This document shows positions 2,901 to 33,856 of a DNA stretch of 47,523 nt, piece after piece. The DNA lies in IMG/VR virus record IMGVR_UViG_3300036827_000033, positions 1 through 47,523 of that record; one strand, written 5' to 3'. The DNA is from a virus. The notes under the pieces are model-generated. The model was given only the letters and a program-made list of their open reading frames with translations. It was not told where the DNA came from and searched no databases. Position 1 is the first letter of the stretch; each line of letters starts with the position of its first letter. Made by a program: the position numbers and the translations under genes.

Positions 2901-2989
2901 TGCCGTTACTCCTGTTTCGCCGCTCCTGTCGGTGGCGGGGTTACTTCGCCGTCTCGCCGGGGAGAACCATGTCGGGGTTGCCGGGCGGA

Positions 2990-3250
2990 CTACTTCGCCA
3001 TCTGCCCAGGCCGCGGCGTCTCGGGATCGATCAGTTGCGTCAACTCGATGGCCTTGATGCCGAGCACGCGTGCGATCTTGGGGAACATCTTTCCTTTGGG
3101 GATGCACTTGCCGGATTCCCAAAGGCTCACCGCGCTCACCGAAACACCAACCTTGCGGGCAAGTCCCGTCTGATCCAGTCCGGCGGCGAGGCGATAACGG
3201 CGAAGTTGGGTCATGAATTTTGCGGCGTCCGGTGCCATCTGCGTTACCAT
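2990..3250 (-). CDS. XRE-family helix-turn-helix regulator (Cro/CI-like)
   Basis: An 86-residue protein that is almost all helix-turn-helix: residues of about 13-65 (L-R-R-Y-R-L-A-A-G-L-D-Q-T-G-L-A-R-K, then V-S-V-S-A-V-S-L-W-E-S-G) match the XRE fold. Size fits a Cro-like regulator. It is divergent from a second XRE gene at 3349 across a 98-base AT-rich spacer, the classic arrangement of a phage switch. The minus-strand direction is that of the accessory genes to its left, so it may control or head that unit. Confidence 0.85.
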   Translation of the reverse strand: MVTQMAPDAAKFMTQLRRYRLAAGLDQTGLARKVGVSVSAVSLWESGKCIPKGKMFPKIARVLGIKAIELTQLIDPETPRPGQMAK

Positions 3251-3348
3251 GATTAGAGAACTTACGAGAGCTATTGAGAACTGTCAAGAGTATTCATCGG
3301 ATTTTTTATCGAGTCTAGTCGAGATTTTTTGAGTAGTTCCGGTAAGTT
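3251..3348. promoter_or_regulatory. divergent promoter and operator region between two XRE genes
   Basis: This spacer is much more AT-rich than its surroundings, with several T-runs. It holds a direct repeat GAGAACT (near 3255 and 3275), an inverted pair AACTTAC (near 3258) and GTAAGTT (3341-3347), and the 9-mer TTCCGGTAA at 3337-3345. The reverse complement of that 9-mer recurs at 4365-4373 ahead of the peptidase gene. These are candidate operators. The exact -35/-10 boxes are not clear. Confidence 0.5.
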
Positions 3349-3687
3349 GTGGTGGTGGAACAACTTGCAAAGGCTAAAAAATTAGTTGTGGAGTACAGAA
3401 TTGTGAGGGGGTGGACGCAACACGAGCTGTCTGAGAAATCCGGCGTTGGCTATAGCACCATCACGCGGATTGAAACTGCGGTCGCCCCATTTCCCACCCG
3501 TCGCATCATGCAGAAGCTAGCTGCCGCCTTCGGCAAGCACTACGACCCGGACAAGATCGCCTTCGTGGACGAATCGCCCCTATTGAAGATCGGCACATTC
3601 AAAGGCTCGGAACTCCAATCCCAAGCCGCCAGCTCCGGCAAAAAGGCCAAAGCCGCGGACGAGCGGAAGAAAAAGGCGAGAGAATGA
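3349..3687 (+). CDS. XRE-family repressor-like protein
   Basis: Predicted 112 residues. Residues 8-62 form a helix-turn-helix (R-G-W-T-Q-H-E-L-S-E-K-S-G-V-G-Y-S-T-I-T-R-I-E), followed by a linker and a Lys-rich tail. One of few plus-strand genes, so it is likely expressed in the prophage state. It converges on, and overlaps or abuts, the 3' end of the ImmA-like gene. ImmR-type repressors paired with ImmA-type peptidases are known from conjugative elements and phages; pairing here is an inference from position. Start is one of several GTG codons near 3349; no strong ribosome site. Confidence 0.8.
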   Translation: MVVEQLAKAKKLVVEYRIVRGWTQHELSEKSGVGYSTITRIETAVAPFPTRRIMQKLAAAFGKHYDPDKIAFVDESPLLKIGTFKGSELQSQAASSGKKAKAADERKKKARE

Positions 3688-3689
3688 GC

Positions 3690-4328
3690 CTACGCCATCG
3701 CGCGAAGCTGGGGAATCCGGTTCTCCGCGAACCATTGCGCGGCCTGCGCCCCGTTCAAGAATCGCGGCGGCGGGAAAGGCAGGATCGTCCCGACCGGCTC
3801 GCCGTCCTCGGTGCACAGTTCCCGCCAGACGGTCGGAAGGTCGTTGCACAGGTCGCACACGATGCCCCGGTCCATCGTGAACGCGTTATGCCGCGCCGAC
3901 CACTTGGGCAGTCCGTTAATCACGTCGCCGATCGCGGCTGGCTTGCCACACTTGCCGCACAGGTAGTCCCGAAGCACAATTGTCGCCGCCGCCTGATTGG
4001 GCGACTTCTCCGGCGCGGGGTCAAGCGATTCCAGCGTCGCGTCGCCGCCCTGCCCGAGATATTGCTCGGTGAGCGCAAGCGTCGCGTCCGCAAACTGATC
4101 CGCATCCGCTTCGTCGTCGCTGGCGCGTCCATGCGCTTCGACCCACGCGTGACGCAACTCGTGGAACAATTCGCGCTTGCGCTCGTGCCGTTTCAGCTCG
4201 GCACTCAGAAGGATGCGACAGGATCGGGGGTCGATCTTCGCACGGCGGGGCTGGCCGTTGAGCATGATCGGTGCCGAACTAATCTCAATCACATAACGCC
4301 GCTGGTCGATGTCGAAATGCACGATCAA
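3690..4328 (-). CDS. ImmA/IrrE-like zinc metallopeptidase with zinc ribbon
   Basis: A 212-residue protein. The motif H-E-L-R-H at 56-60, inside E-L-F-H-E-L-R-H-A-W, is the HExxH zinc site of the ImmA/IrrE (gluzincin-like) family, whose members cleave or inactivate XRE repressors to release lysogeny. A second pair of C-x-x-C motifs (Cys124/127 and Cys158/161) gives a C-terminal four-Cys zinc ribbon, an addition to the minimal peptidase. It is convergent with the XRE gene at 3349. Likely role: antirepressor peptidase (inference). Confidence 0.75.
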   Translation of the reverse strand: MIVHFDIDQRRYVIEISSAPIMLNGQPRRAKIDPRSCRILLSAELKRHERKRELFHELRHAWVEAHGRASDDEADADQFADATLALTEQYLGQGGDATLESLDPAPEKSPNQAAATIVLRDYLCGKCGKPAAIGDVINGLPKWSARHNAFTMDRGIVCDLCNDLPTVWRELCTEDGEPVGTILPFPPPRFLNGAQAAQWFAENRIPQLRAMA

Positions 4329-4441
4329 CTCCCGGTTACGGCCCGCCCTGGCCTGAATTGCTCATTACCGGAAATTACCCTAACCCACGATTCGGCGGCG
4401 GTCAAGCAATTTGTTCGGGATTTGTTTTTTGGGCGGCAAAC
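4329..4441. promoter_or_regulatory. divergent promoter region of the peptidase gene
   Basis: This is the spacer between the minus-strand peptidase and a plus-strand micro-ORF. It carries TTACCGGAA at 4365-4373, the exact reverse complement of the 9-mer found upstream of the XRE repressor, and a nearby C-C-G-G-T-T-A-C variant at 4332. This is a candidate shared operator. A T-rich stretch (4418-4433) may hold the plus-strand promoter. Confidence 0.4.
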
Positions 4442-4537
4442 ATGACCCGCATCGAACTCTGGCAAGCGTTCTTCACCGCCCTGATGCTCGGCTGTCCGGT
4501 GGCGTTTTGGGGTTGGGTGGTGGGGAAGCGGAAATAA
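4442..4537 (+). CDS. 31-aa single-span membrane micro-protein
   Basis: ATG at 4442 encodes a 31-residue peptide with one hydrophobic span (F-F-T-A-L-M-L-G-C-P-V-A-F-W-G-W-V-V-G) and a basic tail G-K-R-K. It sits between the ImmA-like gene and a zinc-ribbon membrane protein gene in the same direction. No clear ribosome site, so support is only composition and context. Confidence 0.4.
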   Translation: MTRIELWQAFFTALMLGCPVAFWGWVVGKRK

Positions 4538-4541
4538 ACAA

Positions 4542-4560
4542 GCCCCGGTTTGGCCGGGGC
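4542..4560 (-). terminator. hairpin, probable terminator of the late operon
   Basis: Perfect 7-bp stem (GCCCCGG/CCGGGGC) with a 5-base loop. Read on the minus strand it is followed by TTGTTTATTT, which fits an intrinsic terminator that would stop late transcription running leftward past the convergent zinc-ribbon gene. On the plus strand there is no T-run. Confidence 0.5.
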
Positions 4561-4597
4561 GGGAGTGAACGATGAGATTTAACAGGCGAGTGAAAAC

Positions 4598-4948
4598 ATG
4601 CCACTAATCCAATGTCCAGAATGCGGGCAACAAATTAGCTCGATGGCGGCGACTTGCCCGCAATGCGCGTTTCCAATTCATCAATCGGGATTGCGAGCGG
4701 GCAGGCTGAATCCATCTCATTCGGGTCGGATCGTGACGACGGAGAAAACCGGGAAGGGATTGAAGGCACAACAACTGCTTGCCGTGTGCCTGCTGATTAC
4801 GTCGGTAACGATGCTCTGCTTTCTTGCCAGCGAATCGAGCAAGGGCAACGACCTTGATATAAGGCTTGCCGCATGGGGGCTTTCGACCTTCATCTCGGTT
4901 TGTTGGCTCGCTTATGTTTCCGTCGCGAAGTGGTGGCGTCACGGTTGA
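4598..4948 (+). CDS. zinc-ribbon membrane protein
   Basis: Predicted 116 residues. The N-terminus is a zinc ribbon (C-P-E-C-G and C-P-Q-C near residues 6-24). It is followed by a polar linker and two hydrophobic spans (about 58-76 and 90-110). Small zinc-ribbon proteins with two membrane spans are common and uncharacterised. A plus-strand gene in the lysogeny segment, it could be a prophage-expressed (lysogenic conversion) protein; that is inference. It converges with the Cys-rich gene at 4951. Confidence 0.65.
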   Translation: MPLIQCPECGQQISSMAATCPQCAFPIHQSGLRAGRLNPSHSGRIVTTEKTGKGLKAQQLLAVCLLITSVTMLCFLASESSKGNDLDIRLAAWGLSTFISVCWLAYVSVAKWWRHG

Positions 4949-4950
4949 GC

Positions 4951-5196
4951 TTATTTCGGTATCTCCACATCCGTCGTTCCGCTCCCGTCACATCCACACC
5001 CGCCTTCAGTTTTGTCGCGCTCAAGCAGTTCTTCGATTTGCTCGTCGCTGGCGGGGAATTTTCCGGCGGGGCAGAAACCGCTTCGCGAGCGATCGACAAT
5101 GTTTACTGGGTTTAAGGGATCGTAAGAGCAATCCATCCGAAGTTCTTTCGGAAGATTGCGCGCGTACTTGCATCGATGACAGATGGCTTCGCGCAT
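4951..5196 (-). CDS. Cys-rich small protein, 81 aa
   Basis: C-H-R-C near the N-terminus, further Cys residues (D-C-S-Y, F-C-P-A-G) and a G-G-C-G-C-D-G loop near the C-terminus suggest a small metal- or disulfide-stabilised fold. It follows the tail-tip gene at 5197 without a gap and is the last gene of the leftward late operon. No family recognised. Confidence 0.6.
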   Translation of the reverse strand: MREAICHRCKYARNLPKELRMDCSYDPLNPVNIVDRSRSGFCPAGKFPASDEQIEELLERDKTEGGCGCDGSGTTDVEIPK

Positions 5197-5823
5197 TTAG
5201 GAGGGGGTAATCGTTATGACACCACTATTTGCCAGATTGCTAGTGACGCATGTAGTCAACGTGTTGGAAATTCCGCTATGACTGGATGTGCAGTCGGATA
5301 GGGAAACGCTACCCGAGAAGATGCTTCCGAAACCAGATGCACAGAGAATAGACATCGCCCCGCCAAATCGAACAAAGATCCATTGGACATCAACCTGAGA
5401 AGTCGTCGTGACGCAAGTTCCCCCACTATATTGCTGGTTCACTAAAACCGCGTGATCGTAGGTATAATCCCATCGGCAAAATGAACCGATCGTCTGATTC
5501 TGTGTAATCGTGATTGTCGATCCGATTGAACCGATCAGTTGTTGAGCAACGCCCCCGATTGTTACGCAGCCGCAAAAGGTGATCGGCGTTGTAACCGTCA
5601 AAATCCAGGTGAGCGGCGTGGTGGTCGAACATTGGGAACACGGTGTTCCGGCCGCACAACAGCAGGGTTGCGGGGACGCCGGATCGTGCGCCTTCATCTT
5701 CCCATCGCTGCCACGGCGCATCTTCCCGTCGCTGCCGCGCTGTAGTTTCGCCAGCGTCGGCAACCGCCACCACGGCCCGGCGCGCGGCGTCCAGAGCGAC
5801 GGACTCCATAACGCGGCGCTCAT
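5197..5823 (-). CDS. Cys-rich tail-tip or fibre-like protein
   Basis: The 208-residue reading starts at 5823, where ATGA overlaps the stop of the gene before it. The longer frame upstream is a shadow. The N-terminal region has a doubled R-G-S-D-G-K-M unit, followed by P-C-C-C and P-C-S-Q-C. The rest is Thr/Ser/Gly-rich beta-strand-like sequence. Layout resembles the last structural gene of prophages I recall from planctomycetes. It is probably virion-surface exposed; no enzymatic motif. Confidence 0.55.
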   Translation of the reverse strand: MSAALWSPSLWTPRAGPWWRLPTLAKLQRGSDGKMRRGSDGKMKAHDPASPQPCCCAAGTPCSQCSTTTPLTWILTVTTPITFCGCVTIGGVAQQLIGSIGSTITITQNQTIGSFCRWDYTYDHAVLVNQQYSGGTCVTTTSQVDVQWIFVRFGGAMSILCASGFGSIFSGSVSLSDCTSSHSGISNTLTTCVTSNLANSGVITITPS

Positions 5824-30669: not shown

Positions 30670-30863
30670 TTCTGCTCCGTCGCTAAACCTTCCCCGCGCG
30701 AATCAGCCGCTTCCTTCTCCAACTCCCCCACGCGCTTCGCCGCGCCCTTCTCATCGGGACGCCATCCGACCTGTTCGCCGTCGGCAAGGATGATCCAACC
30801 TTCGCGTCCGTGGTATTGACCGAGTTCGCCGGTGCCAGTGCATTTTTGAACTTCGTAGGTCAT
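30666..30863 (-). CDS. hypothetical protein, 65 aa
   Basis: Small protein with W-I-I-L-A-D-G-E-Q-V-G-W-R-P-D-E and a charged helix. Its ATG (30863) is partly inside the left target duplication of the IS element. The pre-insertion context was TAG then GGAGGAAAG-ATG; after insertion AGGA is kept, so translation may survive but transcription would have to cross the element. Confidence 0.55.
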   Translation of the reverse strand: MTYEVQKCTGTGELGQYHGREGWIILADGEQVGWRPDEKGAAKRVGELEKEAADSRGEGLATEQK

Positions 30864-30870
30864 CTTTCCT
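30863..30870. repeat. target-site duplication, left copy (TCTTTCCT)
   Basis: Identical 8-bp sequence at 33849-33856 on the other side of the element. Eight bases is the usual target duplication of the IS1595 family. An exact copy means the insertion is recent or unmodified. Confidence 0.95.
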
Positions 30871-30880
30871 CGGAAGTATG

Positions 30881-30931
30881 CCCTTTACGCAATTAAATAA
30901 TCTTGCTACTTGACAATGATTGCGTAAAGGG
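30881..30931. repeat. inner inverted repeat flanking the transposase promoter
   Basis: Perfect 13-bp inverted repeat (CCCTTTACGCAAT at 30881-30893, its reverse complement at 30919-30931). The inner part of the terminal repeat is therefore present a second time, flipped, between the end and the gene. A TTGACA at 30910-30915 sits between the arms. Transposase binding here could also repress its own promoter. Confidence 0.75.
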
Positions 30932-30937
30932 TAAAAT
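30910..30937 (+). promoter_or_regulatory. transposase promoter, likely leaderless
   Basis: -35 TTGACA (30910-30915), 16-base spacer, -10 TAAAAT (30932-30937). Transcription would begin at or next to the ATG at 30944, and no Shine-Dalgarno is present, so the message is likely leaderless. Confidence 0.6.
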
Positions 30938-30943
30938 TAAACC

Positions 30944-31954
30944 ATGGCAAGCAAGAAGCAACATCACCTGTCCAACTCAGAAGTCATCCGAGAAATCCCA
31001 ATCGCTTGCTCGGACGAAACCGCCGCTGTCGAGTTCTTTGAGCACAAGCGCTGGGGCGGTACGCCCTGCTGCGTCCACTGCGCCAGCGTGAACGTCTACA
31101 AGATGGTCGATGCCAAGACCGGCGAGCGCAACAGGCGTTTCCTCTGGCGTTGCCGCGAGAAAGAATGCGGTAAGCAATATACGGTTCGGATCGGGACCGT
31201 CTATGAAGAAACGCGCCTGCCGCTACGCCACTGGGCTTATGCGTTCTGGCGCGCGTCCACGTCCAAGAAGGGCGTGAGCGCATTGGAAATCAAGCGCCAC
31301 TGCCAGATTGGATACCGCGCCGCGTTGTTCCTGATGAACCGCATTCGCTTCGCCATGGCCCCAGAGCCAACCGAATCGAACAAGCTCAAAGGCATCGTGG
31401 AGTGCGATGAAGTCTATCTTGGCGGGAAGCCCCGCCACCACACCGGCCCGCACAAGCGCGGGCTCGGCACGCTCAAGACGCCGGTGTTCGTCGCCGTTGA
31501 GCGCGGTGGGCAGATTCGCCGTCGAATCATGCCAAACGTCACGGCTCGTAATGTCAAAGCTGCGATTCGCGAGATGGTTCATACGAGTGCCGAAATCCAC
31601 ACGGATGAAAATCGCGTGTATCAGGGACTCGGAAACGAGTTCGCCGGTCACGCAACCGTCTGCCACAAGACTGGCGAATACGTTCGCGAGGGCGTTCACA
31701 ACAACACCGCCGAATCGAGCAACGCCCTAATCAAACGCGGACTCATGGGCATCTATCACAACGTCAGCAAGCAATATCTCCACCGCTACCTATGGCAGTG
31801 GGATTTCTGCTGGAACAGCCGCGACCTGAACGACGGCGAGCGAACGCTTGTGGCGATCCATGCGGCAGAGGGCAAGCGGTTGATGTATCGTGAGCCAACA
31901 GCCAAGCCGGTTCCGCCGCTTCCGGGCGAGCAGTTGCCACCATTTCCGCTATAA
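30944..31954 (+). CDS. IS1595-family transposase
   Basis: Predicted 336 residues. N-terminal zinc-ribbon region (C-C-V-H-C and later C-R-E-K-E-C-G, about residues 37-80), then the ISXO2-like catalytic domain with V-E-C-D-E-V-Y-L-G-G-K and I-H-T-D-E-N as acidic residues and H-N-N-T-A-E-S-S-N as the third. Length matches the family. It starts at 30944, right after its own -10 box. Confidence 0.9.
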   Translation: MASKKQHHLSNSEVIREIPIACSDETAAVEFFEHKRWGGTPCCVHCASVNVYKMVDAKTGERNRRFLWRCREKECGKQYTVRIGTVYEETRLPLRHWAYAFWRASTSKKGVSALEIKRHCQIGYRAALFLMNRIRFAMAPEPTESNKLKGIVECDEVYLGGKPRHHTGPHKRGLGTLKTPVFVAVERGGQIRRRIMPNVTARNVKAAIREMVHTSAEIHTDENRVYQGLGNEFAGHATVCHKTGEYVREGVHNNTAESSNALIKRGLMGIYHNVSKQYLHRYLWQWDFCWNSRDLNDGERTLVAIHAAEGKRLMYREPTAKPVPPLPGEQLPPFPL

Positions 31955-32000
31955 CTGGCCATTACTTGCATATTGATACGTCGATGGCTTCAATATTCGA

Positions 32001-33452
32001 ATGTCCGAAGGCGGCAATTTCGAACAGTTGCCGCTAGATTTTCCGAAAGCGGCCCCTCCTATGGCGATCACATCCGCAGAGATTTCGAAGGAACAGGCGG
32101 AACGGATTTCGAATACGCCGGAGGGGCAGTTTTCGGACGTGAAGGCTGTCGAGATTGCTCCTGCAAAGCTCACGAAGGCAATCTCCGCGCTGGCGAACTC
32201 CGATGGTGGAGATGTTTACATCGGGATTGATGAAATCGGCCCGGATAAGCGTCGCCAATGGCGCGGATTTGCAGACGAGGAGGCAGCAAACGGCCACATT
32301 CAAATATTCGAAAAGCTATTTCCGCTTGGCACGGACTTCCAGTATGAGTTCTTGGCGACCGACGCATTTCCCGGTTCGGTGCTTCACATCCAAGTTAACA
32401 AAACCCAAGGCATCGTGACCGCCTCAAACGGTATCGCCTATATCCGCAGGGGGGCGTCCAGTTTGCCCGCAGATAACCCCGAAATGCGGAAGCGGCTGGA
32501 ATACGCCAAGGGGGTTGTATCGTTTGAAGTCGAGTTGGTGAATGCTCCGATCAGCACGGTAACTGAATCGAAAACCGTCCAGGTATTCATTCGCGAGGTT
32601 GTTCCGACATCAACTCCGCAACTTTGGCTTCGAAAGCAACTGCTCACCCGCGAAGATCGGCCCACCGTTGGTGCCACTTTGCTTTTTTCCGATGAGCCGC
32701 AATCCACGCTTCCGAAGCATTGCGGCGTAAAGATTTACCGTTACAAGACCAAGGAGCAGACAGGCTTCCGTGAGGCACTAGCGTTTACGCCCAAGACCGT
32801 CGAAGGCTGCCTCTACCAACAGATTAAAGATGCCGTTCGAATCACGCGAGAGACGGCGGAGAGTATCCCAAGGCTCGGCGAACAGTCTCTTGAGCAGATC
32901 ACTTATCCCGCCGAAACACTTCACGAAATCATCACCAATGCAGTGATTCACCGCGATTACAGCATTAAGGACGACGTACACATTCGAGTTTTTGAGAATC
33001 GCATCGAAGTTCAGAGCCCCGGAAAGTTGCCCGCGCACGTTACTGTCGAGAACATTTTGGAAGAACGGTACGCAAGAAATGGCGCGATTGTAAGGATCTT
33101 GAACAAGTTTCCCGATCCGCCGAATCAAGATGTTGGCGAAGGGCTGAACACTGCATTTTCGGCAATGCACAAATTGGGACTCAAAGAGCCGACGATTACG
33201 CAGACGGAAAATGATGTTCTAGTAATCATCAAGCACGAGCCGCTGGCCAGCCCAGAAGAGGCCATCATGGACTACTTGGAGAATAACCAGCAAATCAACA
33301 ACAGCACGGCTCGCGAAATAACGCATGTTCGAGCTGACCATCAGATGAAAACGATATTCAAACGAATGGAGGCAAAGAACATGATCGAACAGATTCCGGG
33401 AACGATTACAAGAAACACGGCCTACCGAAAGAAGTCTCCTAGTAAGGACTAG
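32001..33452 (+). CDS. AlbA_2/Schlafen-like and HATPase_c passenger protein
   Basis: Predicted 483 residues. The N-terminal half (about 35-155) has the AlbA_2 pattern (A-L-A-N-S-D-G-G-D-V-Y-I-G-I-D, G-I-A-Y-I-R-R-G). The middle (about 300-400) is a GHKL ATPase-like stretch (I-I-T-N-A-V-I-H-R-D-Y-S, V-Q-S-P-G-K-L-P, D-V-G-E-G-L-N-T-A-F). The C-terminus is a winged helix (D-Y-L-E-N-N-Q-Q-I-N-N-S-T-A-R-E-I). Such proteins are annotated as transcriptional regulators or helicase-like; some relatives act in defence. Cargo of the element. A second ATG at 32061 is possible. Confidence 0.75.
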   Translation: MSEGGNFEQLPLDFPKAAPPMAITSAEISKEQAERISNTPEGQFSDVKAVEIAPAKLTKAISALANSDGGDVYIGIDEIGPDKRRQWRGFADEEAANGHIQIFEKLFPLGTDFQYEFLATDAFPGSVLHIQVNKTQGIVTASNGIAYIRRGASSLPADNPEMRKRLEYAKGVVSFEVELVNAPISTVTESKTVQVFIREVVPTSTPQLWLRKQLLTREDRPTVGATLLFSDEPQSTLPKHCGVKIYRYKTKEQTGFREALAFTPKTVEGCLYQQIKDAVRITRETAESIPRLGEQSLEQITYPAETLHEIITNAVIHRDYSIKDDVHIRVFENRIEVQSPGKLPAHVTVENILEERYARNGAIVRILNKFPDPPNQDVGEGLNTAFSAMHKLGLKEPTITQTENDVLVIIKHEPLASPEEAIMDYLENNQQINNSTAREITHVRADHQMKTIFKRMEAKNMIEQIPGTITRNTAYRKKSPSKD

Positions 33453-33464
33453 CCATTTAAGTGA

Positions 33465-33549
33465 TGCGGCGCACAGGATTTGAACCCGCACAACACATGG
33501 TGTTAAGAGCTTCCAAAGCCCTCGCGTCTACCAATTCCGCCACCGCCGC
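33465..33549 (-). tRNA. class II tRNA, anticodon UGG, inside the IS element
   Basis: Folded by eye: acceptor GCGGCGG/GCGCCGC (last pair G-G mismatch), three-pair D-stem with G18-G19, anticodon stem AGGGC/GCTCT, loop T-T-T-G-G-A-A (anticodon UGG, Pro CCA), a 16-base variable region with stem AACAC/GTGTT, T-stem and loop T-T-C-A-A-A-T, discriminator A73. No encoded CCA (TCA follows). Long variable arm and A73 are Leu-type features. The anticodon is not a Leu anticodon, so this is an odd tRNA: Leu body, Pro anticodon. Confidence 0.8.
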
Positions 33550-33550
33550 G

Positions 33551-33577
33551 AATGGGCCACTGGTGGCCCGGTATTCG
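33551..33577. repeat. palindrome upstream of the tRNA
   Basis: GGGCCAC/GTGGCCC inverted repeat, extended by GAAT/ATTC outside. Lies between tRNA and the basic-protein gene on the other strand. Could act as a terminator, operator or processing signal. Confidence 0.5.
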
Positions 33578-33641
33578 CGGGCTCGCTGTGGGGACGCGGT
33601 TTGTGGGCAAGATATAACTGTCTGACGCGGAGAATATTCCG

Positions 33642-33779
33642 ATGGCGAAAAGGAAACTAAAAGCCAAAGCCAAGCCCGGCCCAAAGCCCGACATCCTCAA
33701 GATCGAAGGCAACTGGGAGGATGCGGTAGCGAAGTCGTTCAAGAAGAAGAAGCCCGCGAAGGGTTGGCCGAAGAAGTAG
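33642..33779 (+). CDS. 45-aa Lys-rich basic protein
   Basis: ATG at 33642, TAG at 33777. Begins M-A-K-R-K-L-K-A-K-A-K-P and ends K-G-W-P-K-K, with I-E-G-N-W-E-D-A-V-A-K-S in the middle. I recall short proteins of this type from planctomycetes, with unknown function. Lys-rich, likely nucleic-acid-binding. Near the right end of the element. Confidence 0.65.
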   Translation: MAKRKLKAKAKPGPKPDILKIEGNWEDAVAKSFKKKKPAKGWPKK

Positions 33780-33848
33780 CCGCCGCGACACCGATCGCTC
33801 CTAAGTCATTGAGCATTATTTCGATATTGCGTAAGGGGCATACTTCCG

Positions 33849-33856
33849 TCTTTCCT
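33849..33856. repeat. target-site duplication, right copy (TCTTTCCT)
   Basis: Matches 30863-30870 exactly, next to the right inverted repeat end. Confidence 0.95.

Follow-up and report, generated by a model that had tools for sequence, protein, structure and literature searches.

What does a transposon gain from a transfer RNA (tRNA) gene whose body points to leucine and whose anticodon points to proline? The question is raised by IMG/VR virus record IMGVR_UViG_3300036827_000033, analyzed here over positions 1 to 47,523 (the window), a 47.5-kb virus contig with capsid, terminase, DnaB and integrase genes. Flanked by phage genes, an IS1595-family insertion sequence (IS) occupies positions 30871-33848 with exact ends and holds a class II tRNA gene of the leucine type with the anticodon UGG. 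We find that the transposase genes of IS1595 elements carrying such a UGG tRNA are adapted to its anticodon, and we propose, with a probability of roughly 55%, that the element's tRNA, charged with leucine, decodes a few special CCA codons in the transposase gene, so that the transposase would carry leucine at some or all of them.

The tRNA gene of the window was called by ARAGORN as an 85-nt tRNA-Pro(tgg), and the Rfam tRNA model matches it over its full length (1-71) with 42 bits (gathering score 29; E=1.2e-5). Read off the sequence, the seven-nucleotide anticodon loop is UUUGGAA, with U33 present and the anticodon in mid-loop, where the covariance model also puts it; UGG is none of the leucine set (UAA, CAA, UAG, CAG, GAG) and reads the sense codon CCA, not a stop codon. 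All pairs of the anticodon stem (AGGGC/GCUCU) are formed, the T stem is paired, including two G-U pairs, the variable arm is a 13-nt hairpin with a 5-bp stem (AACAC/GUGUU), and the acceptor stem is paired at six of seven positions, the mismatch being G7-G66. The cloverleaf with its variable arm has a free energy of -28.3 kcal/mol; the unconstrained minimum free energy fold (-32.9) departs from it in acceptor and anticodon detail, as is common for unmodified tRNA. The gene has the class II variable arm, A73 and Leu-type D arm of a tRNA-Leu body. Measured against tRNA-Pro, UGG and A73 fit, but the short class I variable loop and C1-G72 do not, the first pair being G1-C72. The acceptor/T branch is 7/5 rather than the 8/4 or 9/3 of allo-tRNAs, and there is no serine identity. 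The first-pass annotation, made from the letters alone, had described a Leu-type class II body with A73, an anticodon UGG outside the leucine set and a position inside exact IS ends, and all three claims hold, the body being confirmed by sequence, Rfam model and relatives and the ends by 22 of 24 matching bases and the target-site duplication (TSD) TCTTTCCT.

Decay of the gene, which would have shown as a low fold score, can be set aside, since the Rfam score is well over threshold and, among 32 tRNA relatives, 98% of cloverleaf cells are paired and 18 of 20 pairs have changed on both sides. The tRNA is thus an intact class II Leu-body type with a conserved fold; judged from its body, it is likely to be charged with leucine, and it is presumably expressed. 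A model built from these tRNAs typically gave four to five matches in 298 of 299 other Pseudomonadota genomes, as expected for a body of the ordinary tRNA-Leu type, and a genome-wide scan with this covariance model could therefore not reveal more elements. Likewise, the matches of the tRNA in phages, by blastn, are named tRNA-Leu.

The same kind of tRNA gene recurs in other IS1595 elements. A pattern combining the Leu D arm with the UGG anticodon loop, which makes no use of the transposase, was run on 84,980 species genomes and gave 39 matches, 25 of them well-paired class II UGG tRNAs; an IS1595 transposase lies close to 14 of these 25, with 33-66% identity to the window transposase where complete. 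Loci of this kind occur in Acidobacteriota, Planctomycetota, Chloroflexota, Pseudomonadota, Myxococcota and Verrucomicrobiota, and further class II UGG tRNAs stand beside IS1595 transposases in viral contigs. At two loci, one in a genome (L185) and one in a virus (L021), no transposase is in reach, yet an IS1595-type end lies near the tRNA. A search of viral contigs for close relatives with the window transposase alone found nothing. A second route, in which transposases were sought and tRNAs then located by covariance model, added more elements. In this transposase-first set, where UGG was not ascertained as it was in the pattern-first set, no class II Leu-body tRNA inside an element has a leucine anticodon, and the anticodons are mostly UGG, with a few UGC, AGG, GGA and UUA readings; the sole Leu(CAA) gene (L340) is located in a phage tRNA array. 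About 20 elements have inverted ends, exact 8-bp duplications and a class II tRNA inside; many of the elements analyzed come from metagenome assemblies. Passenger genes vary from element to element while transposase and tRNA stay, and the smallest element (L277, 1,709 bp) holds these two and no other open reading frame (ORF) of 100 amino acids, which makes transposase and tRNA the shared core.

The relation between the two became apparent when transposase genes were aligned codon by codon, 28 of them from elements with a UGG tRNA and 129 from elements without a tRNA. At four special columns, corresponding to window residues 19, 140, 143 and 318, proline is encoded by CCA in 49 of 53 cases in elements with the UGG tRNA, compared with 12 of 60 in elements without a tRNA; at the remaining proline positions CCA is used at 9-12% in both groups (28/237 and 103/1156, respectively). 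Taken singly, and with the UGG tRNA present, CCA accounts for 11 of 12 prolines at residue 19, 10 of 10 at residue 140 and 17 of 18 at residue 318 (4 of 19 without a tRNA at this last site). A blind scan of 644 column-codon pairs returned, as the four most strongly tRNA-associated, CCA at the special columns (p 2e-13 to 4e-7), and within the transposases that have the tRNA the strongest codon-level conservation is that of CCA, while adjacent codons vary freely. The columns had been chosen on an early set; in holdout elements, found later through the transposase, CCA is used at 22 of 23 special sites versus 13 of 99 other proline sites (p=3e-14), and elements found after the holdout (L465 and L466/L468) again have CCA. 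The pattern is also specific to the anticodon, for class II tRNAs with other anticodons go with CCA at 0 of 6 special sites, and an element with an AGG anticodon loop and a weak anticodon stem (L358) has CCT at both sites, its only two CCT among 15 prolines. In a tree built without the special sites, tRNA presence changes 14 times, and over nine well-supported independent pairs, few as these are for a phylogenetic test, the occurrence of CCA at any of the sites changes in step with the tRNA in 6.1 on average and in the opposite direction in 0.0 (median p 0.03). The first-pass annotation had offered general mistranslation of CCA, or a decoy or regulatory RNA; neither suggestion foresaw anticodon-specific CCA kept at fixed transposase sites.

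That a CCA reader with a Leu body occurs together with CCA at fixed sites, and that these sites keep CCA only where the UGG tRNA is present, argues for decoding of the transposase gene by this tRNA rather than for a decoy. We envisage that this group of IS1595 elements encodes a functional leucine-type missense tRNA, whose conserved job would be to read CCA at two or three fixed sites of its own transposase gene, in the N-terminal helix, the linker ahead of the DDE domain and the C-terminal tail, placing leucine where proline is encoded in some or all molecules. Because host tRNA-Pro also reads CCA, decoding would be mixed, and the level of the tRNA might set the fraction of transposase with leucine and thereby license or limit transposition. 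An effect on transposition is something we infer from the codon pattern; its sign could go either way, although licensing or rate-limiting of activity appears more likely than poisoning. A stricter version, a private recoding of a sense codon in which the conserved CCA must be decoded as leucine and the tRNA is both required for transposase activity and sets its dose, we put at somewhat below even odds. Separate origins are possible for other pairings of anticodon and codon, for instance AGG with CCT.

The residues found at these sites in relatives without a tRNA fit this proposal in part. The C-terminal site (318) has leucine in 50% of them, and also P, S, I and T; an early impression that it is always leucine was softened when a wider set gave this figure. 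Site 19, in a predicted helix, is hydrophobic in 69%.

Several observations weigh against leucine decoding. In relatives that lack a tRNA, the linker sites have D/E or proline rather than leucine. Conserved proline columns show no depletion of CCA (8/90 with the tRNA, 44/497 without), which means that the codon must still be decoded mostly as proline, and in a Codetta-like profile test for CCA proline ranks first, though with half the support per codon; full reassignment of CCA to leucine is rejected on these two results. The coupling itself has exceptions: one element has the tRNA and none of the special CCA codons (L184), the C-terminal CCA is absent in five (L209, L025, L277, L332, L341), and special CCA codons occur despite no detected tRNA in L339 (three sites), L362 and L376, where some calls of absence may be wrong because the tRNA was sought within 1.5-3 kb of flank, as for L339, which is cut on one side. 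Finally, matching of codon to anticodon was sought in elements with UGC, GGA and UUA anticodons and not found, the UGC elements having no convincing GCA site, and a further AGG-like element (L334) does not use CCT at the sites.

Among the alternatives, the best placed, which we nevertheless regard as unlikely, keeps the coupling of codon and tRNA and reverses its sign or tuning: proline would be the working residue, and leucine insertion or slow decoding of CCA would restrain the transposase as copies and tRNA dose rise. The special sites do tolerate proline without a tRNA (4-24%), CCA has not been purged from conserved proline sites, and sites 140 and 318 lie in linker and tail, where a pause or a mild change might have an effect. 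On the other hand, proline is conserved at none of the special sites in relatives lacking a tRNA, which gives no sign that proline is specifically needed, and the mostly leucine C-terminal site and mostly hydrophobic helix site of these relatives also speak against this alternative.

A still smaller chance falls to charging with proline, whereby prolyl-tRNA synthetase (ProRS) would recognize G35/G36 and A73 and the tRNA would simply aid translation of the transposase's CCA codons. The codon read is indeed CCA, and the UGG anticodon and A73 belong to the proline identity set. Bacterial ProRS, however, also uses C1-G72, and G1-C72 is found in 26 of 31 relatives, which counts against proline charging, as does the Leu body with its long variable arm. 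Moreover, bacterial hosts normally already own a tRNA-Pro(UGG), and the passenger gene of the same element has no preference for CCA (2 of 30 prolines).

We give equally little credence to the view that the tRNA is cargo, acting as a decoy that draws off a defence nuclease or a toxin that cuts tRNA, or else poisoning the host, with the codon pattern inherited by chance. Passengers such as the SLFN_AlbA_2 protein of the window, a SocA/Panacea antitoxin-like protein (L182) and an RmrA-like regulator (L329) would suit it, but they change while transposase and tRNA stay, L277 has no further ORF of 100 amino acids, and the CCA pattern depends on the anticodon and recurs in the holdout elements. That the tRNA is a functionless leftover or attachment-site fragment is highly improbable despite its acceptor mismatch and unencoded CCA end, given the full cloverleaf, the strong covariation and its retention inside elements of many phyla; an attachment site is not needed, since IS1595 elements transpose by a DDE enzyme with TSDs.

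Leucine decoding of the transposase gene would have partial precedents. The nev-tRNAs of nematodes are class II tRNAs with non-Leu anticodons that are charged with leucine in vitro; they are encoded in the nucleus, their anticodons are Gly(CCC) and Ile(UAU), and no misincorporation was detected in vivo (PMC4300185). The tRNAs described here share the class II structure with a non-Leu anticodon, and their leucine charging is predicted from the body, but they are bacterial or viral and ride on a transposon, whereas nev-tRNAs have no mobile element and no adapted partner gene. Allo-tRNAs are bacterial class II tRNAs of the serine type with foreign anticodons and an 8/4 or 9/3 acceptor branch, among them a UAU pseudogene that overlaps a transposon ORF (PMC7609411). 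They share the mismatch of class II body and anticodon, but here the branch is 7/5, the body that of leucine, the anticodon UGG, the element a defined IS1595 and its transposase codon-adapted. Some phages use suppressor tRNAs to reassign stop codons (PMC9523058, PMC10607447), and similarly a mobile genome brings a tRNA that alters how codons of its own genes are read; there stop codons in many genes are concerned, whereas here it would be a sense codon at few sites of one gene, with a host tRNA competing. In tRNA-dependent lysogeny a phage tRNA of normal isotype replaces the host tRNA destroyed by integration (PMC10865867), unlike the noncognate tRNA here, although in both cases the success of a mobile element depends, here by prediction, on its own tRNA gene. 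Like IS1595 elements known to bear passenger genes, those described here have a DDE_Tnp_IS1595 transposase, inverted ends, 8-bp TSDs and extra genes; the literature searched makes no mention of a tRNA as their shared part. Nor does it, many subscription papers lying outside it, describe any family of transposons in which a noncognate tRNA is conserved and the transposase is codon-adapted.

If leucine decoding is correct, these elements would represent a self-contained, mobile exception to the genetic code, in which a small DNA carries both a missense tRNA and the gene written for it. Ambiguity of a sense codon would then serve as a control device, and the element could pass the misreading of codons on to hosts and phages. 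Such compact tRNA-gene pairs could also be a natural source for synthetic biology. The elements further account for at least part of the class II Pro-anticodon tRNAs that annotation tools label tRNA-Pro.

Features of the IS1595 element in the window (positions are those of the window)
Feature	Position	Strand	Basis or remark
Left 8-bp target-site duplication TCTTTCCT	30863..30870		identical to 33849-33856
Left inverted terminal repeat	30871..30894	+	22/24 bases match right end
IS1595 transposase, 336 aa, Zn ribbon + DDE_Tnp_IS1595	30944..31954	+	Pfam PF12762 1e-35, PF12760 1e-8
Special CCA codon 1, residue 19, within predicted helix 13-23	30998..31000	+	alignment column 15
Special CCA codon 2, residue 140, linker after helix 124-137	31361..31363	+	alignment column 181
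Special CCA codon 3, residue 318, C-terminal GKRLxYxxP motif	31895..31897	+	alignment column 494
Passenger gene, SLFN_AlbA_2 + HATPase_c_4 protein, 483 aa	32001..33452	+	Pfam
Class II Leu-body tRNA, anticodon UGG	33465..33549	-	ARAGORN, Rfam model, covariation, body model
Small, very basic ORF, 45 aa, MAKRKLKAKAKPGPKPDILKIEGNWEDAVAKSFKKKKPAKGWPKK, near right end	33642..33779	+	translation
Right inverted terminal repeat	33825..33848	-	22/24 match to left end
Right 8-bp target-site duplication TCTTTCCT	33849..33856		identical to left copy

The assignment of the window element to the IS1595 family follows from its transposase, in which the ISXO2-like DDE domain (PF12762) and the Zn ribbon (PF12760) both pass the Pfam cut-off, and from the inverted ends with an 8-bp TSD that characterize the family; the AlphaFold2 model of the transposase has a predicted local distance difference test score (pLDDT) of 90.6. 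For the passenger gene, PADLOC gave only weak partial matches.

Some class II UGG tRNAs stand apart from IS1595. Well-formed genes near which neither an IS1595 transposase nor an IS1595 end was detected are L010, L048, L049, L174, L178, L179, L188, L192, L193/L201, L195 and L202, and their neighbors include PIN (L193), NusA (L188) and ExoD (L178) genes; around several UGG tRNAs without a transposase IS1595 ends were sought and not found. Two viral class II tRNAs with other proline anticodons, GGG (L450, 6870-6974, plus strand) and AGG (L441, 3601-3684, minus strand), also have no IS1595 transposase nearby. Many matches to the pattern ACTTGGA were discarded as they form no cloverleaf and resemble tRNA-Leu genes interrupted by a group I intron. 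In L176, L177, L180, L183, L186, L203, L207, L208 and L210 such an intron apparently lies in the anticodon loop, and these matches mimic a UGG anticodon loop.

Elsewhere, class II Leu-body tRNAs with the alanine anticodon UGC lie beside IS1595 transposases in L274 (499-582), L336 (1497-1581) and L337 (423-506), all on the minus strand, the first within an element that has perfect 24-bp ends and the TSD CTAAATCG. A class II tRNA with the anticodon UUA, which would read the stop codon UAA (L388, 4621-4702, minus strand), lies within an IS1595 element at 2905-5791 with the TSD GGAAAATG, and the transposase of this element has TAA directly after GKRLMYQS. UAU-anticodon class II tRNAs occur near IS1595 transposases in L316 (2167-2255, minus strand) and L369 (919-1011, plus strand); that of L316 has a Ser-like body with G73 and resembles the transposon-linked allo-tRNA(UAU). 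In a group of IS1595 transposases for which a tRNA was not detected (L361, L364, L372, L390, L395, L401, L403 and L225), the proline of the C-terminal GKRLTYxxP motif is encoded by CCT, a rare codon in these genes, which may reflect common descent or a partner tRNA that escaped detection. Lastly, DNA similar to the small basic ORF near the right end of the window element is present in the L209 and L172 elements (blastn, 75% over about 100 bases), and the ORF possibly encodes an accessory protein of these transposons.
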